Shown piece by piece: positions 14,759 through 39,465 of a stretch of 64,000 bases of DNA. The notes below the pieces were generated by a model, which searched no databases, was not told the DNA's origin, and was given only the letters and a program-made list of their open reading frames with translations. A program made the position numbers and the translations under genes. Within the stretch, counting starts at the first letter, position 1; the number at the start of each line of letters is the position of its first letter. This DNA is from Amylostereum areolatum. Lineage: Eukaryota > Basidiomycota > Agaricomycetes > Russulales > Stereaceae. Location of the stretch: positions 62,001-126,000 of the forward strand of contig SAXG01000088.1 of assembly GCA_012932865.1 (NCBI GenBank), written 5' to 3'.

Positions 14759-14988
14759 TCACTTGCGCTTATTTTTCGGTTTGGGCTTCGTCGACCCAGT
14801 CGCTTTGGACTTGCCCGATCCGGTCGACTTCGACTTCGCCGATTTGGACTTCGCTGATCCAGTCGATTTGGACTTCTTCGACCCAGTCGTTTGCGGCCGT
14901 GTCCCGGGAGCGGGGACGGCCCTTGACAAAGTCGCTGTCTCGTTCCCCAGCAGGGTCTTGGACGAAGGTGGAGTTCCCACGGAGCCGC
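14759..14988 (-). pseudogene. FunK1 kinase gene, 3' piece
   Basis: Minus-strand coding segment ending in TGA at 14759. It encodes a Ser/Thr/Lys-rich basic tail: VGTPPSSKTLLGNET, then repeated KSKSTGS-like units and a terminal KPKPKNKRK that could act as a nuclear localisation signal. Such tails are usual at the end of FunK1 kinases. Its upstream edge is the outer end of transposon copy 1. Joining it directly to the kinase body across that transposon keeps the frame with no base added or removed. It is therefore read as the separated C-terminus of the kinase at 21916-24238. In the present arrangement it has no start of its own. Confidence 0.7.
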
Positions 14989-14992
14989 ATCA

Positions 14993-15006
14993 GGGAAAAC
15001 CTCCCC
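14993..15006. repeat. Terminal inverted repeat, copy 1 outer end
   Basis: GGGAAAACCTCCCC, preceded by ATCA. Matches the inner end at 21901-21914 as a perfect reverse complement. Inside it, up to about 15110, short motifs built on CTAAG, TTTAGAG and CTCTAAA recur, with a near-palindrome GTCAAAATTTGAC at about 15030. Confidence 0.9.
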
Positions 15007-15252
15007 CCCTAAGGTGATGCTAAGGTGCGTCAAAATTTGACGACCTTTAGAGAGAGCCGCCGCGAGCACTCTAAAAGCTCGAAGTCCATCTAACCGCTTC
15101 TAAGTTTCTTTCGTAGTTTCTTGTCAAGTTCACGCGGCCCCCTTCGTCGTCGCCATTCTCGCTCGTATAGTCGTCCCTTCTGTCCCCCGACTGCCTCTAT
15201 ACATTGTCTGACATCCGAATGATACAAATATATTTTATTGTTTGCTATTTTG

Positions 15253-18200
15253 TCAAAATACCTTCATGTACGTGTTCCGCTCGAGGAAGGGGTTCACTCG
15301 AAACTTGGAACACTCCTCGAGCACATTGTAACTCGTCCAATGACGCGGGGCCGTTGCCCCAAATCGGGGGAAGAGTTGCACGCTACGTTGGATATCTTCC
15401 ACAGGTATGATCTCCACTTCGCGTCGACCGTTGCGAATGGACCGAGAGACTCGGTACATGAGCGTGTCGTCCTCTGGCTCGGCCGCGAAGGGTGAAAACC
15501 ATTCGACGTATGCAAGATGCCGCGGGGGCGACGGACGCGATTCGTCGAAGACTTGGGTTGCGACCTTCGTTGCGAGGTGAAACACGACACGGACCTGAGC
15601 CACGCGAAGTCCTGGACCTCAGGATATGAGCAAGGAACATGGTGAACCGTCAAGAGGTACATACCAACAACCCCCTTCGATGATCCATCGTGACCAGTGC
15701 GAACCAACACGGTATCGAATCGTCCAGGGATTGGCCGGCCACGGTTGTCCGAACGTTGAGGACGAACATGGGCAGCGTCACGGTCATCTTCGCCGTTTTC
15801 GCGCCGCAACGCGTCGTGGTTCCAAAACTTGATCTTGTGGTACACGGCGACGGAGGTTGTAGGAATGAGTGTATTGTCTGCCTTGTGACGAGCAGCTGAA
15901 GGTGTGAGATGGGGGAAGTTGTGTTTGACAATGAAGGCGGCCAGAGCATCTCCGAAGTCAACGGCGCCGTACGCGTCGCTGAGAATATTGAAAGAAACGG
16001 ACTTGACGGAGGCATGTTTTGTCATCTCAATGTGTGTGTGTAGGAAGACCTCGGGTACATGTTCAGCGGTGACGGCGGGTTTGCCAGCGAGGCGCCACTG
16101 GAGAAAAGCAGCATGCGATTGAACTTTCTCGCGCCGTTCGAGCCAGGTTGTCATCTGGGGGTATTCATCTTTGCAGTTGGTGGACCTGTACGCGTCCTTC
16201 GTGAAGTCGATGTGCAGCCTTTCCGTTTGCTCCGTGTTGTAATTGTCTGTTGTGCCGAACAGCTCGATGCTGGACCTGTAGTGACGCAAACCGTGGAGCT
16301 TGGGTAAGTTGAAATCAGTGCGGATCCCTAACTCGATGAAAATAGCCTTGTTGTCGTGGAAGCGCTGAAGAGCATCGTCCATGGCGGTCAGGGTCGCGTC
16401 GGTATGCAACGGGTACTGAGCAAGATAGAGAAAGTCCAAGAGGCCTCTGACTGCGCGTATGAGTCGTGCAGGATTACGGCCGTCGGGAAGGGGGAGGTCG
16501 GCAATGAGACCCAAAAGAATGCGGCACATATGCTTGTGTTCAGTGCCAGAGATGCGCGAGAGCGTGGTGATTCCTTTGGTGAAGAGGTGTGCGTTGTGAT
16601 TGGGAGGCATGCGACGGCAGCGGGCATCGATCTCGTCGGGTCCAAATGCTTGCGGGTCTGAAACCCAGCCCACAACGTGCTTGACTACGCCTTGATACAA
16701 CTGATGGAGGATATCTGGGGTACAGGAGACAAAGATGTTGGTATAAGGAAGATCCTCCCAGAACGGGTGGAAGATGGGTCGAAAGCGTGCGTCGCGACAC
16801 GCAGCATGGAATATGGCTGGTTCTTCATCAGCCAGCTCGAAGACATCCAGAGCGTCGTCGACAGAGCGAAATGGATAGTCACTGTCATCGTTGTAGTCGC
16901 CGAGCTCATTATGACGAGCGGGACAGCGCGGACAGTCACCATAAAGTGTTGAGGTGACGAGGACTTGCTCGGGATAATCCCCGACGAACGTAGCATAGAT
17001 TAGGTGGCAGCGCCGCCAAACGCCGTCCCCGCTAACCATAGCGATACCGCACTCCGAGGAGTCCTTGATGGGAGCGAGGATCCTTCGCATGCATTCATGA
17101 AAGACATTCCCAACTGCCCGGCGCCGTGCTGCCTTGTTGGTGATGTGTTCAAGCTTCGCAGTAGGCAGATACCCCACGAGAACCTGTGCGCGGCGTGACG
17201 GTTTGCGGCGGATGCTTTTTGGAATGTTTCCGATTGTCATGTAAACCGGATAAGCTGACTTGCCACGGAACATGGTAAGTTGTGTCTTGTCGGAGGAGAT
17301 GATAAGGGGGACAACAGTTGCGCCTGGATGGATTGCTTCAATAGAGGACTGTACATAAACATGGTTAGAATCTACAGCTACTTCTTCGACGGACGAGGTG
17401 ACGGACCTGAACATTCCACCACCACTTTCCTGTGTTCATCTCATCGAAAATGCGAATTGTCATGTCTTCATCTTGATAGTGCCGCTCTGGCGCGAACATA
17501 AGGTGCTCTGCGAACTCAGGATCACCGTACAACGCACGGACACATGGTATGATGTCGCGCATGTAAACCTCAAATGTCTCGCCGCCGATCCGAATCTCTT
17601 CCATTGAAAACTTGGGCCGACCTGGAAGCTGCTCGTCGATGATCTTGTTGAGCTGCGCAGTGGTTCGATACGAGAGGCCAAGTTTTTCAGGCAGCTAGAG
17701 ACAAGATCAGTTTCGCCGATTGCAGCTCAAAAACCAACAGAAAACATACCTCATCCATTTGGAAGAGTTCCGAGACGGCCGACGAGGTTGGACCCCTGGT
17801 CTTCGCCCAGTACGCCATGGTCCAGTCTATCTTGGATTTGAACGGGGCCCATATGTTGCCCTCACCACCAGCATCGAAATGCGAACCCAGTGCCTCGTAG
17901 CGAGACACGGCGGGCGTGCAGTCGAGAGGGGCACCGGCACCTTCACCCGGAAAATGCTGAATGATGGGATGTTTCCAAAGCTGACCTTCCACATGGAGGC
18001 GTTCCGCTGGTGTGAAAAGACGGCCGGAAGTCCCAGAGTTGGGAGATGCACCACCCCAAGCCGTATCGGGCTCCTCCACATGAACCAGGGGGGCATTTGG
18101 GTTGATATCCGACTCAATGTGGTGCTGGCGGAGGGCTTCTAGGATTTGCGCGTCATTCTCTTCATCCGAGTCGGCGTCGTCGGTAAGGCCGGGGACCATG

Positions 18201-18631
18201 TCATCATCCTCATCTTCATCGTCAACTTGATCGGTTGGACTGGGGATGGTAGGATGGCCTTCGAGAAATGTGTCGGGGTGGTCTGATGGTGCGTCAATAT
18301 CCATACGGTCTCCATGTGCGCTGGAAGAGGGGCCATCGCTGTCCCAGACTCCGAGATCGGCGGGTGAATATGAAGTGGCGAAATAGTCGCCCGTGAAATG
18401 TTGTTCGGCTTCAAATGCATTGTCATCCTTGTGTACTGCGTTGGCAGGGGGTCCGGGTACACCAGGATGACCAGAGAAAATGCCCAGAAATTCAGTATCT
18501 CGACGAGCCTGACTAGCGGCACGGCAGACGTCTCGACGGGTTTGTGCCCAGTGATTTGCAAGGCCCTTGCCGGTAAAGGACTTGTCACATCCAGGGCATG
18601 TGTTCGTTGATTCTGACGCTGTTTTGGGCAT
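15253..18631 (-). CDS. Plavaka/KDZ transposase, copy 1
   Basis: Mirror image of the gene at 27523-30901, with the same four exons and an identical predicted protein of about 1,070 residues; see that entry for domains. It reads away from the kinase fragment inside the inverted repeat, toward the GMC gene. The start is at 18631 and the stop at 15253. No stop or frameshift separates it from its twin. Confidence 0.92.
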
Positions 18632-18889
18632 GGTGACGTGGTGAGAATGGATAACGAGGTTGTTGTCGGAGTTGAGGAGAAAGAATGCACATTCGCCCCT
18701 GGCTATGGCCTCGCGACCGTAGGAACCCTCTAAAATCCAAAATCTCTAAACCAAATCTACCTTGAGCACATGTCAGCTCAATGGGTTGCGCTTATAAGTT
18801 GACGCTCACTTACAGTCAACTCTCCATCTCCCTCCAATTCCCCATTCTTTTCCACTTCTCTTCATTCTCTGACTTAGTACTCGGGCACC
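18632..18889. promoter_or_regulatory. Divergent promoter region between the two transposon genes, copy 1
   Basis: 258 bp between the start codons of the transposase (minus) and the DUF6532-like gene (plus). A TATA-like TTATAAG lies about 100 bp upstream of the plus-strand start. The layout implies shared control of both genes; no experiment or motif proves it. Confidence 0.5.
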
Positions 18890-21391
18890 ATGAGCAAACG
18901 CACAACCCGTACCTCTACTTCGAAGCCGCAACAGCGCACGACATCCCCGACACAGGCTGCCAGCACACCGGCGTTGACCAGGGGCGAGAAAGCCAAAGCA
19001 ACCCGAGCTCGCACCAAAGCCGCTGCGCTCGCACTCCAGAATGCGAATGAGTCGTCTTCTAACCCAGCAGGTGCGTTAGGTTTTGCACCATACAGACGAA
19101 TTCTACGAGACTTACCATTGTGTCATCAGAACCAGTCCTTGTGCCAGTGGCCCCCGGTGCGTGTTCATTTGGTGCCGTTTTCCTCAATTCTCATTGACCT
19201 ATATGAATAACATTTCAGCCGACACTACTGCTCCTGTCCCCGCAAAAAAGCGCAAGGCCCATACCTCGAACGTTGACCTTGTTGGCAGTGCGGACGCAGT
19301 CGAACCACCCAGCAAAAAGACAAAAGCCCGTAAAGGTGCGTATCTCTCACGCTGTGGTGCAGTGACGCGTCGTCCAACTAATTTTCATCTTCCAGGACGT
19401 GTTCCTCCACTCGTCCTGGACGAGGACACGCCGCCGCTGGCTCCACTGAAGATCTGGTCAGACCAGACGGCTCCAGCTCCTTCTCGTACATTGGCAGCCT
19501 CGGGCAACGTTCCGGTTGCGGCTATCGAGGTACGGGGTTTTCTTGCAACTCTCGGATTCGGTTTACTTACCTCGAGGGATACACAGGTCGACGACGACGA
19601 CGACAGCTCCCTGCCCGCACTCTCTGATACGGAGGGCGAGAACTCAGAGCCGGACGACATGGAGGAGATGCATTGTATGGCCAAGGGGAACTCCCGGGCC
19701 CTCCAGAAAGCTATGGATCTTGAGGTGCGCCCCATATTTCGCGCATCTTCCACTCAAAATTGGACTGATGCACGCAATGACAGCGTCCTCAATGGATGCG
19801 CTCACTTGTCAAGTCCCCTGTGCCGCAGAACATCCATGCGGTGACGGTCTTTTCCGCCTTGGTTCCATCCCCGTCCTTCCACGCGATATCCACCGGAACT
19901 CCCGAAGGTCTGGCACTGCTACCCGCTCCAACTTCTCAGGCTCCCCCGGCAGTCGTGGCAGGCAATCAGACAATGCCCAACCCCTCTGAACATCAAGAGG
20001 ATGATATGCCCGAGCTTGTGACAGGTCTGTAACATCCGTCTCTCCTTGTTTCTTTCTACTTATATCATCTTAGATGGTGCTACTGTTCCCTCTGCACCTC
20101 AACCGGATGCTACGCCTCTGCCGCCGGTCGCTGCGCCTGCCACGCAACAACCTTTGCAACATACCGACGGACTCGTTGGAGGTAACTTTTCTCAGAGTCG
20201 CATGTGGCGAATCCTGGGTCTGGTAGGTGACCGATATGTATCTGATGCCGACGGTCCTATAGGAGCTGGTGTTGTCAGCCTTCCCGACGCAACAATTACC
20301 GATCCCAACGAGCCTCACCCTCCACACACCGACCTGGTCCTTCCGCCCCAAGGACAACGGATGCGCCTTTCGCATCAGTCTGACATTGTTCAGCGGATGG
20401 TTCGCGACGCATTCATGCAGCTTATGCTCCATCTGTACTTCGTCAACAGTTTTCCTGATGGCATCTTGGCTGCCTCGTTTGCTCGGCAAGCTCTGACTGT
20501 TGCAGCATCACTGCGGGAGGTTTGCCGTCACATATATAGGCGTGTCTTGCAAGAAGGGGCATATCTCGAACCTCTCATTCCATTGGTACGTCCTGCAGCT
20601 CATCGTGAAGATCTGATTAACCATGTTATAGATTTCCGCTCGTGTCGCACTCTACCGCAAGACCGTCAAGGACCACAGTGATAGCCTCGTCGTGGCAATG
20701 TTCAATCTACTTCCGAACGGAGTGCACTGTGAACAAAGGGTGACCGCTGCACTGTTGGACTATGCGTATATTTTCCGTCGCAACTCGCCGGTAATTTACA
20801 TACATTGTCAGCTTATCGAGTTTCAACTAACGATACCTAGGATGGTTTGACGGGAGCTGTGCGCCGTAGCTGGCCGTACCGCCATCCCATCGGCATCACA
20901 ATCATGAACCGTCTGCTTTTTGCGCGGGGCCTCGCGAACCAGCAACGTCCATGGTTTCCATTTCGCGTCGACTCTGTCACCAACGAGTATCAGCTTGAGC
21001 TCCCTCAAGCTCTTGTTGCACTCGTGTACACGGCGGTACGTAACACTTCTCGCATCTCACCGGCAATACTAACACATCTTTCGGATACTAGGTCTATGCA
21101 TCTCTATATGAACACCGTTCCGGTCAGCAACAGAGGGGCGATTTCTCCTCCGACGCATTCCTTGACGTCTACAACGGCCACATTGCGACTCTCGAGAACA
21201 TCAGGACCACTCGCCCAGAGCACTACCACCGCATGATGTTCAATCTGTACACGGAGGTCTCGTAAGTCCAAATCAACACTACCGTGATATAATCATACTA
21301 ACCTCCGCCTAGAGCTGCTGGCACATCTTCTCCTGCCCCAAATGCAGTCTTTGCCGGGGCTATCGCGGCAATTGAGTTTGAGGATGCGTAA
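18890..21391 (+). CDS. DUF6532-like accessory gene of the transposon, copy 1
   Basis: Start ATG 18890 (MSKRTTRTSTSKP), stop TAA 21389-21391, about ten short exons. The N-terminal third is basic and low in complexity, with an Ala/Lys/Arg helix-prone stretch (KATRARTKAAALALQ) and two lysine clusters (PAKKRKAH, PSKKTKARK) that look like nuclear localisation signals. An acidic Asp/Glu stretch follows. The C-terminal half has MWRILGLVGDRYVSDADGP. It ends in a region with GAVRRSWPYRHPIG, ELPQALVALVYTAVYASLYE, and a DFSSDAFLDVYNGHIATLE motif typical of DUF6532 proteins. Function unknown. The constant pairing with a transposase in all three elements suggests a role in transposition, target choice or silencing control. 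Identical to copy 2. Confidence 0.8.
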
Positions 21392-21900
21392 ATTGTGTAC
21401 TCCCACCGCCTCCCCCATCATACACTGTTCTCTTTCCTTGCGTCGTTATACCTGTCTCGTTCGTCCTGCCCCCACTTACGTCCTGTCTACTAATGTCTTT
21501 CGTGTCCATACTTACCACTACTCTCCATTCCGTATTCTGCCTCCCATCCCCCGCTACGCGTGTCCACTCGTTTACGTTTCATCCCCCCCCCCCGCCCGGC
21601 TGTCTGTTTGTATCGTACTATCCTGCCCTGTGCTAATGTTTCTAATGACCATAATTCTGGTCTAAACCGTTTGAACCCGCGAGCTAACCCCGAACAAATG
21701 GCACGGGTATATGTCTTCCTAAATTTATCCTAATGTACTAAACCCTTGCCAAGGCGGACGCACCGACCGCCGCCTTAGCAAAACCTAGTACAGTTTTAGG
21801 CCAGGATTACCCGTCATTTTGCTTCTAATAAGAGGGGGACCTTCCTAAACTCCTAAGCCGCAAATTAGAGCCAATAAGATCAAATTATTACAATTTTGCA
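21392..21900. other. Transposon inner subterminal region, copy 1
   Basis: About 500 bp of non-coding sequence between the accessory gene and the inner inverted repeat. It is pyrimidine-rich at first and includes a run of 11 C near 21583. It then holds scattered TTAG/CTAA motifs and a GC-rich palindrome-like stretch near 21755-21780. Likely 3' UTR and transposase binding sites. Confidence 0.6.
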
Positions 21901-21914
21901 GGGGAGGTTTTCCC
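21901..21914. repeat. Terminal inverted repeat, copy 1 inner end
   Basis: GGGGAGGTTTTCCC, the reverse complement of the outer end at 14993-15006. It abuts the kinase coding sequence. Confidence 0.9.
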
Positions 21915-21915
21915 A

Positions 21916-24238
21916 GAGCGTCGTTAAGGCGCATCCTCTTCGATTCACTTTCTTCAACCCCGTCCTCCAAATCACGCCGTTTCGACGTTGTGGGATTATT
22001 GTATGCCGTCTTGACCGCAGAACCCGTTGGGTTGTAGACGGAGGCAACCGCACCCTCAGAGATTTGGTTTTGCGCCCCATCGTTCTGGGGCCAGCCCGGA
22101 GTTTTGAGAGCGGTTATAAAGGCCCCCCCAACTAGTTTTGAGGTCTCCAAGTTCTTCATACATGCCTCTCTTTCGGCCTCCACCTCAGCTCCGGTGAGCT
22201 CCTTCGAAGGAATTGCCACGACCACATCGGTGCCGTAGGCTGCGTCGATGTCGGGATCTTCGCGCTTGGCTTCCACCGCATCGGACACCTCACGGTAGAG
22301 AGGTTTGAAGAGGTCGCGCAGCTCGTTCATTAATATGACGAGGGGACGAGGGAGATCCCAGCTGGCCTGAAGCTCCTTCGCCGTGAAACAGTTCCCTGTC
22401 AGTATGGACTTCCTCACTACCCCCCCGACTGCAAGGTCGAAGGCGGTGTGGAAGTTCAAGGCGAAAGTATTCTGGTCGGCGGAGCAGATAGTAGGTCGAT
22501 ATTTGAGAACGTGATGGAAAAGGACGTGGACGAAGGACTCGAGGTCGTCCCGCAGAAGATGGTCCCGTCCGATAGGATTCATCAGAATGGCCACAGACAT
22601 GTATTGCACCGTTCCCTATCGAACAGGTTAGGATAAATGCGAAGCAGCTCATGAATGTGGAAAGACTCACTGTTCGCCACCGCCGACGCGCCTCTAATCC
22701 GTCCTTCGTAAACCAGCACAGGTCCCAGTCAATAAGCATTCCGTTCCCGTCATCGTCGATCATAATGTTGCTGGCACTGACGTCGCGATGCAATGTTTCT
22801 GCATCTATGTAGGCTTTCCAATGACCTGAAGCTATCGTAAGAAACCACGACCGTGTTAACAGATGAAGGTACGCACAGAAAACAGCATGTGACAGAGCTC
22901 GACACAGTTGTTCGGTTGAACTGAATTTGTTGAGTGGGCGGCCAATCTTCCCGAAAACAGTACGATGGTGGGTAAGGGGATAGACGTCGTGCGTCATGTA
23001 TGCCCATTCCTTCTCCGCGTAATTTTGCGTTTGAGTGGTCTGTGACTCCCGCGTTGACGTTTGTGAGGAAGTAGACTTCTTCTTGGACTTGGCAGATGAT
23101 TTCTTCTTGGAACGAGACGGAGAATCCAACGGGACATCGCCGCCGTAAAGATAATCGGGGAGATGGGGAACTTTGGCCTCGTTGAGACGCTCATAGATTT
23201 CGCCCTCAATGGGCATGCCCGAGAGTGAAATGCGCCAGCTGTCCTTCAGGAAGACCAGCTTTGGCGCCTCGGGGTCTGTGATATCGACTCCGATGTACCC
23301 GAACGTCGATCGGCCGGGAAGAGTGCGAGGGTATGCTTGTGGTCGACCAGTGATAACGATGTGACAGTCTTCTTTGTCCCAGACCTCGAAGCGACGCAGC
23401 ACTTCAGTCTCCTCGGGCAGGGCATGGGGAGATCTCGCTTCTCGTTTGGCTTTGAAGACGCTGTGGGCAAGCTCCGTCTCTCGGACGCTTGGGAGCGAGA
23501 CAGTCGTGTCGAAGCCACGCTGAGCGGGGGTCATGAAGTTGAATCTCCAGAGAAACTCTGCCAGATACGACGTCGTTTGCCAGTTGAACCTCTCGGAGAA
23601 GATGGCGCCGCTGCGGTCCCATCGAAAGAGGCGAGCCTCTTCCTCCATGATGACCACGGAGAACACAAAGACACGATGTGTGTTCTCGAACATCAACATC
23701 GCATACGACAACAGCTGCCCGCGCACCTCGGAGGCATCCTCGTCCTTGCCCACTGGGTCAAGGTTCTTGCGGTCCTCGGCGTGGGCTGGGGCCTTCATAG
23801 GATCTTCGCATCGTGTCCTCTGCCCGGAAGCATTCTTGAATTTCAGCTCCAAGAAAAAGAGGGATTTCATGAACATTTCGAAGTCCTTCCTCTTTTGCTT
23901 GGGCGTGGGGGACGGTGCGTCGGAAGGCAATGGAGTGGAAGTGGACGATGGGGATCGGAGAGGGTTGTTCCCTTTTTGGAACGCAGTCATGTCCGCCTTG
24001 CCCGTAATACCAGTGCTCTCACCCTTTCCTATGACGTTGTGTGTGTCCTCGACGTCCATGTGTAAGCAGAAAGGCGCAAAAGCCGGAATCTGGAAATCGA
24101 CATTAGCGATAACCTCCGTGGTTGCAATAGCGAAAGACATACGAGGGTCGACTCCTCAACTTTGACACCTTTGGTGTAGTCGAACTTCCCATCGTTTGGT
24201 AAAGGGGGAGCCCACGCTGGCAGTCCCCCCATATGCTC
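21916..24238 (-). pseudogene. FunK1-type fungal protein kinase, central body
   Basis: Minus strand, reading from 24238 down to 21916 between the two transposons. Exons: one ending at about 24151 (KFDYTKGVKVEESTL), a long one starting IPAFAPFCL, then further exons down to RRDLEDGVEESESKR. The FunK1 regions are in order: an N-lobe with RGQLLSYAMLMFENTHRVFVF and RWDRSGAI, the catalytic loop HRDVSASNIMID, the metal-binding segment LIDWDLC, then GTVQYMS and DDLESFVHVLFHHVLKYRP. All frames are open, so only the transposons break this gene. The body could still be translated from an ATG at 24232, 3 bp inside the kinase sequence. In that case 20-odd residues at the C-terminus would come from the transposon end (stop at 21845). 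Kinase family: protein kinases expanded in basidiomycetes; substrate unknown. Confidence 0.85.
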
Positions 24239-24239
24239 T

Positions 24240-24253
24240 GGGAAAACCTCCCC
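24240..24253. repeat. Terminal inverted repeat, copy 2 inner end
   Basis: GGGAAAACCTCCCC; mirror of 21901-21914. Confidence 0.9.
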
Positions 24254-24762
24254 TGCAAAATTGTAATAATTTGATCTTATTGGCTCTAATTTGCGGCTTA
24301 GGAGTTTAGGAAGGTCCCCCTCTTATTAGAAGCAAAATGACGGGTAATCCTGGCCTAAAACTGTACTAGGTTTTGCTAAGGCGGCGGTCGGTGCGTCCGC
24401 CTTGGCAAGGGTTTAGTACATTAGGATAAATTTAGGAAGACATATACCCGTGCCATTTGTTCGGGGTTAGCTCGCGGGTTCAAACGGTTTAGACCAGAAT
24501 TATGGTCATTAGAAACATTAGCACAGGGCAGGATAGTACGATACAAACAGACAGCCGGGCGGGGGGGGGGGATGAAACGTAAACGAGTGGACACGCGTAG
24601 CGGGGGATGGGAGGCAGAATACGGAATGGAGAGTAGTGGTAAGTATGGACACGAAAGACATTAGTAGACAGGACGTAAGTGGGGGCAGGACGAACGAGAC
24701 AGGTATAACGACGCAAGGAAAGAGAACAGTGTATGATGGGGGAGGCGGTGGGAGTACACAAT
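24254..24762. other. Transposon inner subterminal region, copy 2
   Basis: Mirror of 21392-21900: non-coding, with the same 11-base G run (complement of the C run) and TTAG-type motifs. Confidence 0.6.
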
Positions 24763-27264
24763 TTACGCATCCTCAAACTCAATTGCCGCGATAGCCCCGG
24801 CAAAGACTGCATTTGGGGCAGGAGAAGATGTGCCAGCAGCTCTAGGCGGAGGTTAGTATGATTATATCACGGTAGTGTTGATTTGGACTTACGAGACCTC
24901 CGTGTACAGATTGAACATCATGCGGTGGTAGTGCTCTGGGCGAGTGGTCCTGATGTTCTCGAGAGTCGCAATGTGGCCGTTGTAGACGTCAAGGAATGCG
25001 TCGGAGGAGAAATCGCCCCTCTGTTGCTGACCGGAACGGTGTTCATATAGAGATGCATAGACCTAGTATCCGAAAGATGTGTTAGTATTGCCGGTGAGAT
25101 GCGAGAAGTGTTACGTACCGCCGTGTACACGAGTGCAACAAGAGCTTGAGGGAGCTCAAGCTGATACTCGTTGGTGACAGAGTCGACGCGAAATGGAAAC
25201 CATGGACGTTGCTGGTTCGCGAGGCCCCGCGCAAAAAGCAGACGGTTCATGATTGTGATGCCGATGGGATGGCGGTACGGCCAGCTACGGCGCACAGCTC
25301 CCGTCAAACCATCCTAGGTATCGTTAGTTGAAACTCGATAAGCTGACAATGTATGTAAATTACCGGCGAGTTGCGACGGAAAATATACGCATAGTCCAAC
25401 AGTGCAGCGGTCACCCTTTGTTCACAGTGCACTCCGTTCGGAAGTAGATTGAACATTGCCACGACGAGGCTATCACTGTGGTCCTTGACGGTCTTGCGGT
25501 AGAGTGCGACACGAGCGGAAATCTATAACATGGTTAATCAGATCTTCACGATGAGCTGCAGGACGTACCAATGGAATGAGAGGTTCGAGATATGCCCCTT
25601 CTTGCAAGACACGCCTATATATGTGACGGCAAACCTCCCGCAGTGATGCTGCAACAGTCAGAGCTTGCCGAGCAAACGAGGCAGCCAAGATGCCATCAGG
25701 AAAACTGTTGACGAAGTACAGATGGAGCATAAGCTGCATGAATGCGTCGCGAACCATCCGCTGAACAATGTCAGACTGATGCGAAAGGCGCATCCGTTGT
25801 CCTTGGGGCGGAAGGACCAGGTCGGTGTGTGGAGGGTGAGGCTCGTTGGGATCGGTAATTGTTGCGTCGGGAAGGCTGACAACACCAGCTCCTATAGGAC
25901 CGTCGGCATCAGATACATATCGGTCACCTACCAGACCCAGGATTCGCCACATGCGACTCTGAGAAAAGTTACCTCCAACGAGTCCGTCGGTATGTTGCAA
26001 AGGTTGTTGCGTGGCAGGCGCAGCGACCGGCGGCAGAGGCGTAGCATCCGGTTGAGGTGCAGAGGGAACAGTAGCACCATCTAAGATGATATAAGTAGAA
26101 AGAAACAAGGAGAGACGGATGTTACAGACCTGTCACAAGCTCGGGCATATCATCCTCTTGATGTTCAGAGGGGTTGGGCATTGTCTGATTGCCTGCCACG
26201 ACTGCCGGGGGAGCCTGAGAAGTTGGAGCGGGTAGCAGTGCCAGACCTTCGGGAGTTCCGGTGGATATCGCGTGGAAGGACGGGGATGGAACCAAGGCGG
26301 AAAAGACCGTCACCGCATGGATGTTCTGCGGCACAGGGGACTTGACAAGTGAGCGCATCCATTGAGGACGCTGTCATTGCGTGCATCAGTCCAATTTTGA
26401 GTGGAAGATGCGCGAAATATGGGGCGCACCTCAAGATCCATAGCTTTCTGGAGGGCCCGGGAGTTCCCCTTGGCCATACAATGCATCTCCTCCATGTCGT
26501 CCGGCTCTGAGTTCTCGCCCTCCGTATCAGAGAGTGCGGGCAGGGAGCTGTCGTCGTCGTCGTCGACCTGTGTATCCCTCGAGGTAAGTAAACCGAATCC
26601 GAGAGTTGCAAGAAAACCCCGTACCTCGATAGCCGCAACCGGAACGTTGCCCGAGGCTGCCAATGTACGAGAAGGAGCTGGAGCCGTCTGGTCTGACCAG
26701 ATCTTCAGTGGAGCCAGCGGCGGCGTGTCCTCGTCCAGGACGAGTGGAGGAACACGTCCTGGAAGATGAAAATTAGTTGGACGACGCGTCACTGCACCAC
26801 AGCGTGAGAGATACGCACCTTTACGGGCTTTTGTCTTTTTGCTGGGTGGTTCGACTGCGTCCGCACTGCCAACAAGGTCAACGTTCGAGGTATGGGCCTT
26901 GCGCTTTTTTGCGGGGACAGGAGCAGTAGTGTCGGCTGAAATGTTATTCATATAGGTCAATGAGAATTGAGGAAAACGGCACCAAATGAACACGCACCGG
27001 GGGCCACTGGCACAAGGACTGGTTCTGATGACACAATGGTAAGTCTCGTAGAATTCGTCTGTATGGTGCAAAACCTAACGCACCTGCTGGGTTAGAAGAC
27101 GACTCATTCGCATTCTGGAGTGCGAGCGCAGCGGCTTTGGTGCGAGCTCGGGTTGCTTTGGCTTTCTCGCCCCTGGTCAACGCCGGTGTGCTGGCAGCCT
27201 GTGTCGGGGATGTCGTGCGCTGTTGCGGCTTCGAAGTAGAGGTACGGGTTGTGCGTTTGCTCAT
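24763..27264 (-). CDS. DUF6532-like accessory gene of the transposon, copy 2
   Basis: Exact inverted copy of 18890-21391: start at 27264, stop at 24763, same introns and same predicted protein. See copy 1 for the domains. It is transcribed toward the kinase fragment, so run-through would give antisense-free reading in the kinase direction (both minus strand). Confidence 0.8.
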
Positions 27265-27522
27265 GGTGCCCGAGTACTAAGTCAGAGAATGAAGAGAAGT
27301 GGAAAAGAATGGGGAATTGGAGGGAGATGGAGAGTTGACTGTAAGTGAGCGTCAACTTATAAGCGCAACCCATTGAGCTGACATGTGCTCAAGGTAGATT
27401 TGGTTTAGAGATTTTGGATTTTAGAGGGTTCCTACGGTCGCGAGGCCATAGCCAGGGGCGAATGTGCATTCTTTCTCCTCAACTCCGACAACAACCTCGT
27501 TATCCATTCTCACCACGTCACC
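27265..27522. promoter_or_regulatory. Divergent promoter region between the two transposon genes, copy 2
   Basis: 258 bp between the divergent start codons, identical to 18632-18889 in reverse. A TATA-like CTTATAA lies on the accessory-gene side. Confidence 0.5.
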
Positions 27523-30500
27523 ATGCCCAAAACAGCGTCAGAATCAACGAACACATGCCCTGGATGTGACAAGTCCTTTACCGGCAAGGGCCTTGCAAAT
27601 CACTGGGCACAAACCCGTCGAGACGTCTGCCGTGCCGCTAGTCAGGCTCGTCGAGATACTGAATTTCTGGGCATTTTCTCTGGTCATCCTGGTGTACCCG
27701 GACCCCCTGCCAACGCAGTACACAAGGATGACAATGCATTTGAAGCCGAACAACATTTCACGGGCGACTATTTCGCCACTTCATATTCACCCGCCGATCT
27801 CGGAGTCTGGGACAGCGATGGCCCCTCTTCCAGCGCACATGGAGACCGTATGGATATTGACGCACCATCAGACCACCCCGACACATTTCTCGAAGGCCAT
27901 CCTACCATCCCCAGTCCAACCGATCAAGTTGACGATGAAGATGAGGATGATGACATGGTCCCCGGCCTTACCGACGACGCCGACTCGGATGAAGAGAATG
28001 ACGCGCAAATCCTAGAAGCCCTCCGCCAGCACCACATTGAGTCGGATATCAACCCAAATGCCCCCCTGGTTCATGTGGAGGAGCCCGATACGGCTTGGGG
28101 TGGTGCATCTCCCAACTCTGGGACTTCCGGCCGTCTTTTCACACCAGCGGAACGCCTCCATGTGGAAGGTCAGCTTTGGAAACATCCCATCATTCAGCAT
28201 TTTCCGGGTGAAGGTGCCGGTGCCCCTCTCGACTGCACGCCCGCCGTGTCTCGCTACGAGGCACTGGGTTCGCATTTCGATGCTGGTGGTGAGGGCAACA
28301 TATGGGCCCCGTTCAAATCCAAGATAGACTGGACCATGGCGTACTGGGCGAAGACCAGGGGTCCAACCTCGTCGGCCGTCTCGGAACTCTTCCAAATGGA
28401 TGAGGTATGTTTTCTGTTGGTTTTTGAGCTGCAATCGGCGAAACTGATCTTGTCTCTAGCTGCCTGAAAAACTTGGCCTCTCGTATCGAACCACTGCGCA
28501 GCTCAACAAGATCATCGACGAGCAGCTTCCAGGTCGGCCCAAGTTTTCAATGGAAGAGATTCGGATCGGCGGCGAGACATTTGAGGTTTACATGCGCGAC
28601 ATCATACCATGTGTCCGTGCGTTGTACGGTGATCCTGAGTTCGCAGAGCACCTTATGTTCGCGCCAGAGCGGCACTATCAAGATGAAGACATGACAATTC
28701 GCATTTTCGATGAGATGAACACAGGAAAGTGGTGGTGGAATGTTCAGGTCCGTCACCTCGTCCGTCGAAGAAGTAGCTGTAGATTCTAACCATGTTTATG
28801 TACAGTCCTCTATTGAAGCAATCCATCCAGGCGCAACTGTTGTCCCCCTTATCATCTCCTCCGACAAGACACAACTTACCATGTTCCGTGGCAAGTCAGC
28901 TTATCCGGTTTACATGACAATCGGAAACATTCCAAAAAGCATCCGCCGCAAACCGTCACGCCGCGCACAGGTTCTCGTGGGGTATCTGCCTACTGCGAAG
29001 CTTGAACACATCACCAACAAGGCAGCACGGCGCCGGGCAGTTGGGAATGTCTTTCATGAATGCATGCGAAGGATCCTCGCTCCCATCAAGGACTCCTCGG
29101 AGTGCGGTATCGCTATGGTTAGCGGGGACGGCGTTTGGCGGCGCTGCCACCTAATCTATGCTACGTTCGTCGGGGATTATCCCGAGCAAGTCCTCGTCAC
29201 CTCAACACTTTATGGTGACTGTCCGCGCTGTCCCGCTCGTCATAATGAGCTCGGCGACTACAACGATGACAGTGACTATCCATTTCGCTCTGTCGACGAC
29301 GCTCTGGATGTCTTCGAGCTGGCTGATGAAGAACCAGCCATATTCCATGCTGCGTGTCGCGACGCACGCTTTCGACCCATCTTCCACCCGTTCTGGGAGG
29401 ATCTTCCTTATACCAACATCTTTGTCTCCTGTACCCCAGATATCCTCCATCAGTTGTATCAAGGCGTAGTCAAGCACGTTGTGGGCTGGGTTTCAGACCC
29501 GCAAGCATTTGGACCCGACGAGATCGATGCCCGCTGCCGTCGCATGCCTCCCAATCACAACGCACACCTCTTCACCAAAGGAATCACCACGCTCTCGCGC
29601 ATCTCTGGCACTGAACACAAGCATATGTGCCGCATTCTTTTGGGTCTCATTGCCGACCTCCCCCTTCCCGACGGCCGTAATCCTGCACGACTCATACGCG
29701 CAGTCAGAGGCCTCTTGGACTTTCTCTATCTTGCTCAGTACCCGTTGCATACCGACGCGACCCTGACCGCCATGGACGATGCTCTTCAGCGCTTCCACGA
29801 CAACAAGGCTATTTTCATCGAGTTAGGGATCCGCACTGATTTCAACTTACCCAAGCTCCACGGTTTGCGTCACTACAGGTCCAGCATCGAGCTGTTCGGC
29901 ACAACAGACAATTACAACACGGAGCAAACGGAAAGGCTGCACATCGACTTCACGAAGGACGCGTACAGGTCCACCAACTGCAAAGATGAATACCCCCAGA
30001 TGACAACCTGGCTCGAACGGCGCGAGAAAGTTCAATCGCATGCTGCTTTTCTCCAGTGGCGCCTCGCTGGCAAACCCGCCGTCACCGCTGAACATGTACC
30101 CGAGGTCTTCCTACACACACACATTGAGATGACAAAACATGCCTCCGTCAAGTCCGTTTCTTTCAATATTCTCAGCGACGCGTACGGCGCCGTTGACTTC
30201 GGAGATGCTCTGGCCGCCTTCATTGTCAAACACAACTTCCCCCATCTCACACCTTCAGCTGCTCGTCACAAGGCAGACAATACACTCATTCCTACAACCT
30301 CCGTCGCCGTGTACCACAAGATCAAGTTTTGGAACCACGACGCGTTGCGGCGCGAAAACGGCGAAGATGACCGTGACGCTGCCCATGTTCGTCCTCAACG
30401 TTCGGACAACCGTGGCCGGCCAATCCCTGGACGATTCGATACCGTGTTGGTTCGCACTGGTCACGATGGATCATCGAAGGGGGTTGTTGGTATGTACCTC

Positions 30501-30901
30501 TTGACGGTTCACCATGTTCCTTGCTCATATCCTGAGGTCCAGGACTTCGCGTGGCTCAGGTCCGTGTCGTGTTTCACCTCGCAACGAAGGTCGCAACCCA
30601 AGTCTTCGACGAATCGCGTCCGTCGCCCCCGCGGCATCTTGCATACGTCGAATGGTTTTCACCCTTCGCGGCCGAGCCAGAGGACGACACGCTCATGTAC
30701 CGAGTCTCTCGGTCCATTCGCAACGGTCGACGCGAAGTGGAGATCATACCTGTGGAAGATATCCAACGTAGCGTGCAACTCTTCCCCCGATTTGGGGCAA
30801 CGGCCCCGCGTCATTGGACGAGTTACAATGTGCTCGAGGAGTGTTCCAAGTTTCGAGTGAACCCCTTCCTCGAGCGGAACACGTACATGAAGGTATTTTG
30901 A
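27523..30901 (+). CDS. Plavaka/KDZ transposase, copy 2
   Basis: Four exons: 27523-28404, 28460-28747, 28806-30489, 30543-30901; about 1,070 residues. The N-terminus holds a zinc-finger-like C-x2-C...H...C motif (CPGCDKSFTGKGLANHW, residues about 13-37). An acidic linker follows. The Plavaka core has SDKTQLTMFRGKSAYPVYM, IPKSIRRKPSRRAQVLVGYL, SGDGVWRRCH, VGDYPEQVLV, GDCPRCPA, FHPFWEDLPYTNIF and the hallmark CTPDILHQLYQGVVKH. Later come GTEHKHMCRILLGL and FGTTDNYNTEQTERLH. KDZ transposases use an RNase H-like DDE fold. I did not assign the exact catalytic triad. The protein would bind the terminal repeats and catalyse cut-and-paste movement in the nucleus. All frames are open, so it is probably functional. 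Confidence 0.93.
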
Positions 30902-31147
30902 CAAAATAGCAAACAATAAAATATATTTGTATCATTCGGATGTCAGACAATGTATAGAGGCAGTCGGGGGACAGAAGGGACGACTATACGAGCGAGAATG
31001 GCGACGACGAAGGGGGCCGCGTGAACTTGACAAGAAACTACGAAAGAAACTTAGAAGCGGTTAGATGGACTTCGAGCTTTTAGAGTGCTCGCGGCGGCTC
31101 TCTCTAAAGGTCGTCAAATTTTGACGCACCTTAGCATCACCTTAGGG

Positions 31148-31161
31148 GGGGAGGTTTTCCC
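31148..31161. repeat. Terminal inverted repeat, copy 2 outer end
   Basis: GGGGAGGTTTTCCC followed by TGAT; mirror of 14993-15006. Confidence 0.9.
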
Positions 31162-31165
31162 TGAT

Positions 31166-31390
31166 GTGAGCGTTGATGAAGTCTGCAGGGGGCTGAGGGC
31201 CGACGTAAAGACCGGCCATGTCGACATCGTGCATCTTGTACGCTTGTTTGGCGGGAGGGTTTTGTTGAATAGCGTGAGCTTGCGTCGCCCCAGGCTTGAA
31301 GCGCGGAGGTGTACGCTTGAGGTTCGCGCGGAGATCAGGTGCGACTGTGGACTGGACGGGAGTGACGTTGGCGGGTGCGGTGGCAGACAT
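31166..31390 (-). pseudogene. FunK1 kinase gene, 5' piece
   Basis: ATG at 31390 (MSATAPANVTPVQ) followed by 75 open codons ending in GPQPPADFINAH at the transposon end. The segment KPGATQAHAIQQNP and the MHDVDMAGLYVGP stretch are what I expect near the N-terminus of FunK1 kinases. Joining directly to GAG CAT ATG at 24238 continues the frame into the kinase body. This piece supplies the native start and promoter but runs into transposon copy 2, so a normal mRNA would need to splice out or cross 6.9 kb. Confidence 0.75.
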
Positions 31391-32403: not shown

Positions 32404-32655
32404 TCACGACAAAACCCCAGCCCTCTTCCAACCCTTCACCCATTGCAAGACCTGTTCATCGCCAAGAGCCTCCTTGCACTGCCTAAGCACCTCCGACACC
32501 ATCTTCGCCTTCTCAGCATCAAGTCGCGGAACACCTATCGGTTCCCCGTCCTCTCCAGCGCTCGCCGCGTGGAAGAAATCAACAAGTCTAAGTGCCGGGT
32601 TGTGCCCAAACGCGTGTTCTTCAACGCCCTTCGCCACCTTCCGCGCGCGATCATC
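32404..32655 (-). pseudogene. Adenylate-forming reductase, separated C-terminal exon
   Basis: Minus-strand frame ending in TGA at 32404. It encodes ARKVAKGVEEHAFG, then HNPALRLVDFF, then GVPRLDAEKAKMVSEVL and ends KGWKRAGVLS. This is the usual helical C-terminal end of the thioester reductase domain in fungal NRPS-like reductases. It is preceded by the 7-bp duplication and the third transposon. With one copy of GATGATC it joins the frame ending SAWLNALDD at 39459 exactly, giving LNALDDRARKVAK. Without excision it lacks a start. Confidence 0.85.
32649..32655. repeat. Target-site duplication, left copy
   Basis: GATCATC on the plus strand immediately left of the third transposon. Same sequence and orientation as 39459-39465. 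Seven matching bases; an eighth differs (C against T), which fits an original 8-bp duplication with one change. Confidence 0.85.
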
Positions 32656-32669
32656 TGTAAAAACCTCTC
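32656..32669. repeat. Terminal inverted repeat, third element, left end
   Basis: TGTAAAAACCTCTC. Pairs imperfectly with 39442-39458 (reverse complement ATCAGGGAAAGCCTCTC). Confidence 0.75.
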
Positions 32670-33140
32670 GTGCGAATTGGATCTTTTTGGAGGATATTGG
32701 ACCTAAACGGCGAGTTAGAGGATTTGACGTGTTTAGGAAGGTCCTCTTACTACTAGATCTAATTTAGCGGCTAATGGTTTCTCAAGACGGTACAATCTCG
32801 GTCCAGCCGCACACCAACAGTGGTCTCAAACTGATCTCAACAGCATCCAAGCATTTTCACAACATAGGTTTGGTTCACTTTTAGATACCGTTGTCCTGCC
32901 TTTGTCACGGCTTTTGGGGCTTGCTCAGACACCATTAGAGAAACCGGGTATCCATTTTTCATACATTAGCACGAGGCACGGATTGTAAACTAAGCGTTAA
33001 TGAATGAGCGGAGGGGGGGGATGAAGCTACGGATGCGAGGGGAAATAGAGCAGGAGCGAGAACCATTGTACACGAACACATATTACGAGAATCGACTAAA
33101 GCGGAAGTGAACGTAAGCGTAGCGGGAGGGGGACACACAT
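32670..33140. other. Left subterminal region of the third transposon
   Basis: Non-coding. Holds TTAGAGG, TTTGACG, GTTTAGGAAGGTCC and TAATTTAGCGGC. Two of these have close counterparts in the twin elements near their inner end (GTTTAGGAAGGTCC; TAATTTGCGGC). Probable transposase-binding region and 3' UTR of the accessory gene. Confidence 0.6.
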
Positions 33141-35675
33141 CTACTCATCATTATAGTCAATCAATGCAGCAGGAACACCGGGGGCGGGCAGCACCGACAA
33201 AGGGCCTGTTCTAGACAGATAAATGAGTGGAATGGATTGAAAAGCTAGGGAAACAACTTACAAAGCCGCCGTGTACAAACCGGACATGAAGCTGTGGTAG
33301 AACGGGGGGCGAGTGTTCTCCATCTCGTTCAAAGTGGCAATATGGCCACCGTACACATCCAGGTATGTCCCCGCCGAGAAATCGGACTTGACATGATGCC
33401 CGGATCGACGCTCGTGCAGAGATGCGTAAACCTACACAAGGATAAGCAAAGGTTTATCATATTGAGATCAAAATGAGTCACTCACCGCTGTAAATGCCAG
33501 TGCAACCATTGCCTTCGGGAGCTCGATGCGACGCTCGTTAGTTACCGAGTCAATTGTAAACGGGAGCCTATCGCGGAAGCCGTCCGGAATTCCCTTTGCG
33601 AAAATGGTCTGGTGAAGAATTGTGATCCCGATTGGGTGACGGTAAGGTTGACCACGGCGCACAGCCCCAGTCAACCCATCCTACAGTATGATACTATAAG
33701 TCAGTAGAAACCCACAGAGACATGACCAGTGAAAACACACCGGAGAGTTGCGACGGAATATGTAGTTATAATCCCGGACAGCGAAAGCTACTGCCGCTTG
33801 ACTCTGCTCCCCTTCAGGAAGCAGGTTGTACATTCCGACGATGTGATTGTCGCTGGATTCCTTGAACTTCAAGCGAAAGATACCAATGCGAGCGATGGGC
33901 TAGTACAAAATGGTCTGAGAACCGTGCTGCCAGGAAAAATCCAAACTGACTTACCAAGGGAATGAGACGGTTGATGTACCCGGGTTCCTGGAGCAAACGG
34001 CGGTGCATGTCGATACAGACATCGCGGAGAGACGCCGCTCGGATCAGTGCATTGCGCGAGAATGTCTCACTGAGCGTCGCATCGGGAAACCCGTGGACTA
34101 GAAGGATCTCGTATATAATCTGAACGAAAGCGCCGCGGATTCCAAGTTGAACGATGTGCGATTGCACTCGAAGTGACATCCGCTGATGTGGGCCTCCCAG
34201 CACCAAGTTTGTATTCTCCGGAAACTCGCCTCCGACCGTTGCTGGTGGAAGGTTGATCACGCCGGCCGCTAGAGGACCTTCAGCATCAGAGACAAATTGG
34301 TCGCCTATGAGACCTAAAATTCGCCAAAGGTATCTCTGGCGGACATTACCTCCAGTGGTATCTTCGTTAACTTGGACCTGCTCTCCGAGGGCAGCATCAA
34401 CAGCTGTGACAGGAAGAGCCGTGGAAGGAGCCGTGGCAGGAGGAGGAGCCGTGGCGGCGGCGGCGGCAGCGGCAGCGGCAGCGGGTGGAGCGGCGGCAGC
34501 GGCGGCGGCAGCGGATGGAGCGGCGGCAGCGGTGGCAGAAGCAGCGGTAGTGGCAGCGGATGGGGCAGCGGCAGCGGTGGTGGCAGCGGCAGCGGATGGA
34601 ACGGCGGCGGGGACAGAAACAGGAATGGGTGGAGGAAGAGGAGCCGAGACCGGGGCAACAGGAGGGACGGCGGACGGAGGAGAAGGAGCTGTGTTAGAAG
34701 TCGACGGTCCCGCAACGGCTTGAGGGGCATCGAGGCGACTCAGGCAAGGATCAATGGGAACGAAAGATGGGCTTGAAGACGCAGCCGAATTTGCACTGGA
34801 GAGCCATGTAGGACGCTATAGTATCCGTTAGCATGCTGCACTTGAGGAGGTTAAGGACAACACATACCTCGAGGTTCACCTGACGCTGGAACTGCGTCGG
34901 GTTCGTCTTCGCCAACTCGTCCCCGTCGTCATCTTCGATCGCGTCAAAATCGTCTTCGGAGAGCGGCGAGAGGCCGTTATCGTCGTCATCGTCGTTTTCG
35001 TCCTACAAACAAATCCGTCAATCAGCAACTCGGAACCTGATACAAAGTGAAAGTTATGTACCTCAATCATGGCAACACCTGTGTGACCCGAGGTAACCGC
35101 CTTTGCCTTGCCTTTCGTCCCGTCCACGTAGAGCTTGAGTGCAACCGGTGGAAGCTCGTCCTCTTGAAGAACAAGCTGAGGAGCGCGCGCTAAAGAAAGT
35201 GGAACGACAATGTCAGCCCGTGGGAACACACGCGATTGAACGCGAACGTACTCACACTTCCGAGTTTTTGACTTCTTCGCCGCTGGGCCATTGGCCTGAA
35301 CACCTTTCCCCCCCTTTCGTTTCTTGCCCGCAGCTAAAGGAGGGAAGTGTGAGCGTCGGAAGACACCAACAAAGACAGCAATACAACATACCGGCAGTAA
35401 CAGGCTCGGATGCAACATCTATTTCGGCCACGGCCCACGGAGCCAGCGGAAAAAAAATGGTAAGTGGTCTGTGATTCGATGGGAAAAGCTATTGACGTAC
35501 CATCCACAGGAGCTTGCTCTCGCTGTAATTGCGCTGCAGCGGCAGCCTTCGACGCCTTGGTGCGAGCACGAGTAGCAGCAGCCTTCTGCGCTGGCGAGAG
35601 TGCCGCGCTGGCGGTCCCAGAGGCCGAGGAAGTGTTGCGCTGCGACGTTCTCAATGTGCGTGACTGGTAACTCAT
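33141..35675 (-). CDS. DUF6532-like accessory gene of the third transposon
   Basis: Start at 35675 (MSYQSRTLRTSQRN), stop TAG at 33143-33141, about ten exons in the same layout as the twins. The N-terminus repeats the KAAATRARTKASKAA stretch. A basic cluster (GKKRKGGK, KKSKTRK) follows, then an acidic stretch. Next is a long Ala/Pro-rich stretch that the twins lack. Then come YLWRILGLIGDQFVSDAEGP, SLRDVCIDMHRRLLQEPGY, a TGAVRRGQPYRHPIGITIL block and PKAMVALAFTAVYASLHE. It ends with DFSAGTYLDVYGGHIATLN. The strongest conservation with the twins is in this C-terminal DUF6532-like half, so that half is the functional core. It is maintained with the transposase despite divergence. Confidence 0.8.
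34430..34620. repeat. GCN-type microsatellite coding for poly-alanine/proline
   Basis: About 190 bp of imperfect GCGGCGGCA-like repeats. On the minus strand, in the frame of the accessory gene, they encode Ala/Pro runs. The matching place in the twin elements has no such repeat. The plus-strand open frame over this stretch is a by-product of the composition. Confidence 0.85.
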
Positions 35676-35991
35676 GCCGTTGACGGGGGGGACGGAAAAG
35701 AAAAAGAGGGGAGAAGGAAAGTGGGGAAGAGGAAGAAGAGCGAGGATGCCTGTCGACACGGCGAGGTGAGCGTACAAATATAAGTCCTGCGCCGTTTGCT
35801 GACATGGCCGTAGGTTTCGTAATAGTGCGGGCTCTGCGGAGCGTGAGCACTCTCACGTCTGGTGGGGTCTTGGTGAGTTTTAGACGGACTTGGTGAATTT
35901 AGGCGGCTGATTTCCTCCGCGCATAGTGAAATTGGATATAACGCACCCTTCTCTCCTCCACATCACGACCTCCAACACACGCTGTATCCTC
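35676..35991. promoter_or_regulatory. Divergent promoter region of the third transposon
   Basis: 316 bp between the divergent start codons (35675 minus, 35992 plus), corresponding in position to the 258-bp region of the twins. Shared control of both genes is inferred from layout only. Confidence 0.45.
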
Positions 35992-38900: not shown

Positions 38901-39299
38901 TGCTCGTCTGAGATTTCACCGCTGACCGGTCATGACCAAGGCTACCGCGTCGCACAAGTGCGCGTGGTCTTCCGACTATCTGCCAAGACGGCCGACACCG
39001 TCTACCTACCCACACGTCCGACACCCCCACAACACCTTGCCTACATCGAGTGGTTCACGCCGTTCGCAAAGGAGCCAGAAGATGACACACAGATGTACCG
39101 TGTGTCTCGTTCCGTGCACAATGGGCGACGCGACGCCGAAATCATCCCTATCGAAGACATCCAACGGAGTGTCCAGCTCTTCCCGCGTTTCGGTGCGACC
39201 GCTCCCCGTCATTGGACAAGCTATAATGTCCTTGAGGAGTGTACTAAATTCCGTGTCAGCTCATTCCTCGATCACCATACATACAGGACCGTATTTTAG
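35992..39299 (+). CDS. Plavaka/KDZ transposase of the third element
   Basis: Four exons: 35992-36795, 36859-37146, 37209-38889, 38941-39299; about 1,043 residues. Exons 2 and 4 have exactly the same lengths as in the twins (288 and 359 bp). The N-terminal C-x2-C...H...C motif is kept (CNGCSKNFSPRGRTNHW). Core motifs: SSDKTQLTLFHGKTAYPVYM, IPKDIRRKPSRRAQVLIGYL, SGDGVWRRCH, VGDYPEQVLV, CTPDILHQMYQGVIKH, GTEHKHIARILLGL. Conservation with the twins is high through the core and low in the acidic linker, as expected under selection. The start was taken at MAYQLPTAK because it aligns with the twin start; an upstream in-frame ATG at 35926 exists. Confidence 0.92.
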
Positions 39300-39441
39300 C
39301 CCGAGAGTCCGTACAATGACAATGTGTGTAACCTCTAAAAACCTCGGACTTGACTTAGACACCTTTTGACGTACTAGACCGCCTTAGAGGGCACCATCTA
39401 AACGGCACGCTAATTAGAGGACCTTGGCGCGGCATTTGCGG
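39300..39441. other. Right subterminal region of the third transposon
   Basis: Non-coding. Shows AACCTCTAAA, TTTTGACG, CCTTAGAGG, CTAAACGGC and TTAGAGG in close succession, recalling motifs at the outer end of the twins. Confidence 0.55.
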
Positions 39442-39458
39442 GAGAGGCTTTCCCTGAT
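39442..39458. repeat. Terminal inverted repeat, third element, right end
   Basis: GAGAGGCTTTCCCTGAT. The last bases CCCTGAT are the same as at the outer end of the twins (31159-31165), which fixes the boundary. Confidence 0.8.
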
Positions 39459-39465
39459 GATCATC
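39459..39465. repeat. Target-site duplication, right copy
   Basis: GATCATC directly right of the third transposon; matches 32649-32655. Confidence 0.85.

Follow-up and report, generated by a model that had tools for sequence, protein, structure and literature searches.

Two identical PlavakaB-like transposons in opposite orientation within one FunK1-type kinase gene of Amylostereum areolatum, most likely linked by a short-range jump

Introduction

Cut-and-paste DNA transposons such as Ac/Ds and Sleeping Beauty are known for local transposition, in which a sister copy lands near its source. Here we describe a locus of the fungus Amylostereum areolatum at which a kinase gene of the FunK1 (Pkinase_fungal) type is interrupted twice by a Plavaka element. 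The locus lies in a window of 64,000 nucleotides (the whole stretch of DNA that was analysed; C170:62001-126000) in a genome of 57.1 Mb on 182 contigs, and was first described in a sequence-only reading of the window. Coordinates are those of the window unless a contig is named.

Mushroom-forming fungi are rich in Plavaka transposases, with 3,194 relatives found at E values up to 1e-60 when 8,000 candidates were scored. In the consulted part of its description (PMC12730594), PlavakaB is placed in the CMCT clade (CACTA/EnSpm-Mirage-Chapaev-Transib), with termini 5'-CATCA..TGATG-3' and target-site duplications (TSDs) of 2 or 3 bp. The element at our locus shares with it the Plavaka transposase domain, one CATCA terminus and a 2-bp TSD, and differs in the second terminus, published as TGATG and present here as AGAG. 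It is filed here only as PlavakaB-like and appears to be an asymmetric variant of such a cut-and-paste transposon. No report of a short-range jump or of a jump distance for Plavaka was found in the parts of the literature searched. For maize, the consulted part of a report on Mu killer (PMC3440606) proposes silencing via the hairpin transcript of an inverted transposon duplication.

The interrupted kinase gene

The FunK1 gene consists of three colinear pieces on the minus strand (Table 1). The middle piece matches PF17667 (Pkinase_fungal) in a Pfam scan with an E value of 2.3e-30 (106 bits, cut-off 24.1), and its frame contains LHRDVSASNIMI and LIDWDL, which we take to be the HRD and D-W-D catalytic motifs of kinases. 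With a domain score well over the cut-off and the catalytic motifs present, the gene resembles other FunK1/Pkinase_fungal kinases, and differs from them in being split by two insertions. The N-terminal piece and the tail piece, each scanned alone, matched no Pfam family; a search of a kinase piece against a phage collection gave no match and was uninformative. The top four protein matches are all from Amylostereum chailletii, followed by Mycena, Peniophora, Multifurca and Russula.

Two natural, uninterrupted relatives were found on contig C13 (L059, L060), with kinase bodies 92% and 89% identical to that of the window gene in a DNA search. Matches obtained with the outer flanks directly adjoin the body matches on C13, and those of the three pieces stand back to back, at 1980-2204, 2202-4550 and 4548-4777 in L059 and at 1464-1688, 1686-4018 and 4016-4245 in L060. 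Each join overlaps by exactly 2 bp, corresponding to a single TSD copy at each empty site. The ATG and the stop codon are the same in both relatives as in the window gene; piece 1 is identical to L060 at 221 of 224 positions and to L059 at 216, piece 3 to L059 at 221 of 229 and to L060 at 210. Phase is kept across each insertion (6,931 + 2 = 6,933 = 3 x 2311). The sequence-only reading had proposed one gene in three colinear, in-phase pieces and an uninterrupted form to be sought elsewhere; the joined pieces on C13 and a spacing divisible by three agree with both.

That reading had further held that FunK1 homologues should resemble the outer pieces at their termini, which applies to one end of the closest annotated protein. 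In A. chailletii P0001 (763 aa), residues 2-24 align with the N piece up to the insertion (74%) and residues 31-747 with the middle piece, from just beyond it. The tail piece finds no match there, yet both C13 relatives carry the tail with the same stop, so that support for the second junction comes from these two relatives.

The kinase frames had also been called open, which holds for blocks N, B2 and C of the window gene; block B3 contains one stop before an exon ('VR*GTVQYMS'), which we read as intronic. L059 and L060 each have one stop codon in B2 and one in B3, taken, without proof, as introns read through by the blocks. The ratio of non-synonymous to synonymous substitution rates (dN/dS) between the window kinase and the two relatives is 0.15-0.20 over 477 body codons and 0.16-0.19 for the N piece; the block preceding the second insertion gives 0.26-0.44 and the short tail 0.40-0.82. 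The change in the kinase body is of a conserved type. Most of what these values reflect predates the insertions.

C13 is a possible allele of the window locus, but the kinase loci of the two are 8-9% apart and the surrounding matches are not colinear. At its left end, C170 carries another related kinase gene (L033; 1.6-6.6 kb), which has a near-identical partner at 141.8-146.8 kb of C13 (L034), with 4,933 identities, 22 mismatches and 28 gap letters, a closeness hinting that both haplotypes are partly present in the assembly.

Structure of the two insertions

A search of the region 12000-34000 for inverted repeats of at least 60 bp found one, with arms at 14988-21919 and 24235-31166 that are 100% complementary. 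The two elements within it are the same string, with 0 differences over 6,931 positions, and lie in opposite orientation, as had been noticed from the sequence. Each gap in the kinase gene indeed equals one Plavaka element; the length, originally given as 6,927 bp, is corrected to 6,931 bp plus a 2-bp TSD, none having been named before. The element runs from CATCAGGGAAAACCTCCCC to GGGGAGGTTTTCCCAGAG, its ends and the TSD having been placed by comparison with other copies. AGAG (element 6928-6931, window 21915-21918) was found in 13 of 13 second ends read, and across these the two ends of the element are unlike each other outside a common GGGAAAACCTCCCC.

Three other arrangements were considered. 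The 5-bp ends common to the arms suggested a 5-bp TSD, with swapped TSDs or inversion products, but the other copies assign CATCA and AGAG to the element and set the TSD at 2 bp. A composite transposon carrying the kinase body as cargo is ruled out by the matching TSD of each element and by outer pieces that belong to the same gene, and an inversion of the middle through recombination between the copies by TSDs that match within each copy and by a middle oriented as in the relatives. Together, the 2-bp TSDs and the two relatives with empty sites show two independent insertions, in line with the original view that the kinase is not cargo and that one gene was hit twice.

Within the element, PF18759 (Plavaka) matches the open stretch 15294-17435 with an E value of 2.5e-83 (280.4 bits, cut-off 26.3) and the stretch 17365-17694 with 9.2e-25; the open stretch 17687-18745 gave no Pfam match. 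Pfam scans of nine open frames from the element, a set that falls short of a full gene model, gave no score for a TET/JBP domain. A second Plavaka element, about 71% related, lies upstream of the kinase gene at approximately 32652-39459; its first 549 bp occur at 25 other places in the genome at 97-100%.

Table 1. Features of the interrupted kinase gene and of the two elements (window coordinates)
Feature	Position	Strand	Details
Kinase piece 1	31167..31390	-	ATG and first 74 codons, up to the right-hand insertion; TSD copy TG 31167-31168
Kinase piece 2	21919..24235	-	Body with catalytic motifs; TSD copies TG 24234-24235 and CG 21919-21920
Kinase piece 3	14759..14987	-	Lysine/serine-rich tail and stop codon; TSD copy CG 14986-14987
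Left-hand Plavaka element	14988..21918	+	6,931 bp; CATCA end at 14988; TSD CG 14986-14987 / 21919-21920
Right-hand Plavaka element	24236..31166	-	6,931 bp; CATCA end at 31166; TSD TG 24234-24235 / 31167-31168
Transposase gene, left element	15294..18745	-	Open stretches 18745-17687, 17694-17365 and 17435-15294 as putative exons, joins inferred
Transposase gene, right element	27409-30860	+	Mirror image, in the identical element copy
Second element gene, DUF6532-like	20632..21236	+	Weak, under Pfam cut-off; PF20149 E 0.0019 (20632-20850) and 0.00039 (20841-21236)
Substitution, element 2983 (T; C elsewhere)	17970 left copy, 28184 right copy	+	Both window copies, 0 of 11 others read there
Substitution, element 3211 (A; G in 10 others)	18198 left copy, 27956 right copy	+	Both window copies; A also in diverged C120

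Relationship of the two copies

The gene has received two insertions, and the second copy arose most likely by short-range transposition of the first. At least 11 full-length copies of the element are present in the genome, two in the window and one each on C106, C108, C114, C150, C161, C163, C169, C172 and C178, a lower bound, as 34 of 70 candidates were scored and a separate end search took exact ends only. The nine other copies differ from the window copies at 3-8 positions; leaving indels aside, the number of private substitutions per copy ranges from 0 to 5, with a mean of 2.0. Each of the 36 pairs among these nine shows at least one substitution, and for two equally old copies the chance of identity would be near 0.02; for these reasons the window pair is either younger, as a pair, than the family's spread, or homogenised.

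Both window copies carry the same two substitutions (Table 1), each a missense change in the open frame that precedes the core of the transposase. C at 2983 and G at 3211 are found in the other nine full-length copies and in an interrupted copy on C110; the diverged copy on C120 has C at 2983 and A at 3211. Given C120, this A may be the ancestral state or a mutation that occurred more than once. The change at 2983, present in the pair alone among the 13 copies read there, is of the kind that local transposition would leave in linked copies, a pattern that fits gene conversion too. Random placement of 11-14 copies in 57.1 Mb would yield 0.004-0.007 pairs within 2,320 bp. Local hopping from the first copy, one of the two explanations offered from the sequence, gains support from the common substitutions.

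The main rival is that two unrelated jumps from different sources were followed by gene conversion, which made the inverted neighbours identical. The family, with its near-identical copies, could have supplied both jumps, and identical inverted arms 2.3 kb apart are, by general knowledge, good substrates for conversion. This history is nevertheless unlikely, requiring the rare coincidence estimated above and a conversion that ran from end to end and left the flanks untouched.

Several points weigh against a short-range jump. The sister link consists of one fully private substitution and one found also in C120, and both are CpG transitions, the commonest class here, to which 14 of the 18 private substitutions in the other nine copies belong (hand count); methylation of the copies would lead one to expect this. 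Differences would likewise be lost through gene conversion across the inverted pair, or if the assembly assigned reads of one copy to the other. The estimate for random placement was made after the fact and takes no account of the greater tolerance for insertions in dispensable, repeat-rich regions; the number of copies behind the pair comparison is, as said, a lower bound.

The locus is still explained most simply by a single insertion whose copy then jumped over a short distance. A PlavakaB-like transposon entered the coding part of a FunK1-type kinase gene, duplicating 2 bp of its target, and a second copy would have arisen from it 2.3 kb away, in opposite orientation and with its own 2-bp duplication, possibly by a jump out of a replicated sister chromatid. 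Identical copies carry no record of the order of the two insertions.

A preference of Plavaka for FunK1 genes or clusters, or its better survival there, would make repeated hits expected and was the other explanation initially offered. In its favour, the copy on C178 (L028/L029) also lies in a FunK1-like gene, beside an LIDGDLA motif and with the catalytic loop GWLHRDLTVTN. With a FunK1 profile, its right flank scores an E value of 1.6e-5 and its left flank 0.19 and 0.35; with PF17667, the left flank scores 2.8e-4 and the right 0.067, both under the Pfam cut-off. The profile itself gave a signal in 4 of 14 control genomes, above cut-off in 2. Across 1,140 open stretches from 29 flanks (1.5 kb) of 15 sites, however, only the window gene and C178 were found at E values up to 1. 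Elsewhere, the element sits within or next to genes for a 2-oxoacid dehydrogenase acyltransferase (C150) and a sugar transporter (C172), and seven of nine scanned flank frames matched no family. By a hand estimate, a FunK1 gene would be hit in at least one of the nine other sites by chance with a frequency of 5% (132 matches of 2.5 kb each) to 10% (279 candidates), the genome count being rough, with 132 matches from 107 scored of the 279 candidates. By eye, the TSDs and flanks share no common motif, and the substitutions common to the window pair are left unexplained by preference. One FunK1-like site among nine is too little to bear out a target preference, which we consider improbable.

We regard an assembly artefact, with only one genuine insertion or with two copies that read collapse rendered identical, as very improbable. 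Doubtful joins through the repeat do occur elsewhere, in the two head-to-head partial copies on C18 and the unmatched TSDs of C161, C169 and C110. Against this, each window insertion has its own matching TSD and flanks that are contiguous in two natural relatives, which a false join would hardly produce twice. Collapse with the other copies is contradicted by these having kept their own substitutions; the window pair alone might still have been homogenised.

Other copies of the family

Matching 2-bp TSDs flank 9 of the 11 full-length copies, whose ends were set by inspecting the same copies, the exceptions being C161 and C169; over all end pairs read, 11 of 14 match, C110 being the third mismatch. 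The unmatched 2-bp flanks (C161, L016/L017; C169, L020/L021; C110, L008/L009) point to past recombination between copies or to misassembly across the repeat. Outside the full-length set, C110 has an interrupted copy, C120 and C51 have copies that are 4-5% diverged, and on C18 the element is rearranged.

On C18 (L058, 12501-20500), the left flank of the window and the first 2,273 bp of the element are followed by a head-to-head partial copy and an unrelated flank. CG stands on both sides, and C155 has a 96% relative of the unrelated flank in which the site is empty; by eye, none of 29 exact element ends shows this site's other flank. C18 is probably a chimeric contig.

A second copy of the C178 locus on C66 (L076/L078) is 99.7% identical, with 1488 identities and 7 mismatches in the left flank and 1495 and 1 in the right, and its site is empty. 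Because it is absent from so similar a copy, the C178 insertion must be very recent and the family has moved recently; this insertion may perhaps differ between two nuclei. The recency that the sequence-only reading had claimed for the window insertions is supported by this, by the few positions that separate the other copies from the pair and by the low dN/dS of the kinase body.

Discussion

The frame that starts in the N piece stops inside the element (...FINAHIRENLPP followed by a stop codon), and the catalytic body is cut off from its natural start codon. On these grounds the window gene is very probably null, with no kinase made from this copy; the related kinase genes on C13 remain without inserts.

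The insertions form a perfect 6.9-kb inverted repeat with 2.3 kb between its arms; transcription through it would produce a hairpin. By analogy with maize Mu killer, the locus might act as a natural hairpin locus, made by one short-range jump. Transcription from the promoter of the kinase, or from the second genes of both elements, which face inward, would then yield a perfect 6.9-kb hairpin with a 2.3-kb loop and feed RNA silencing against all of the recently active Plavaka family; this is speculative, and we give it little credence.

For the most part, the window locus is an instructive example of known transposon behaviour. A sister pair, relatives with empty sites and an insertion absent from a near-identical locus together provide a concrete case of recent, probably short-range movement. 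They also illustrate that one jump can build a perfect inverted repeat, a structure able to destabilise a chromosome or to silence a transposon family.

The proximity of the two copies resembles local transposition of Ac/Ds and Sleeping Beauty, with the sister copy close to its source. With Mu killer, as far as the consulted part of its report goes (PMC3440606), the locus shares an inverted transposon duplication by a gene, from which a hairpin transcript is possible in principle; it differs in that the maize locus is a partial inverted duplication, whereas two complete elements are present here.

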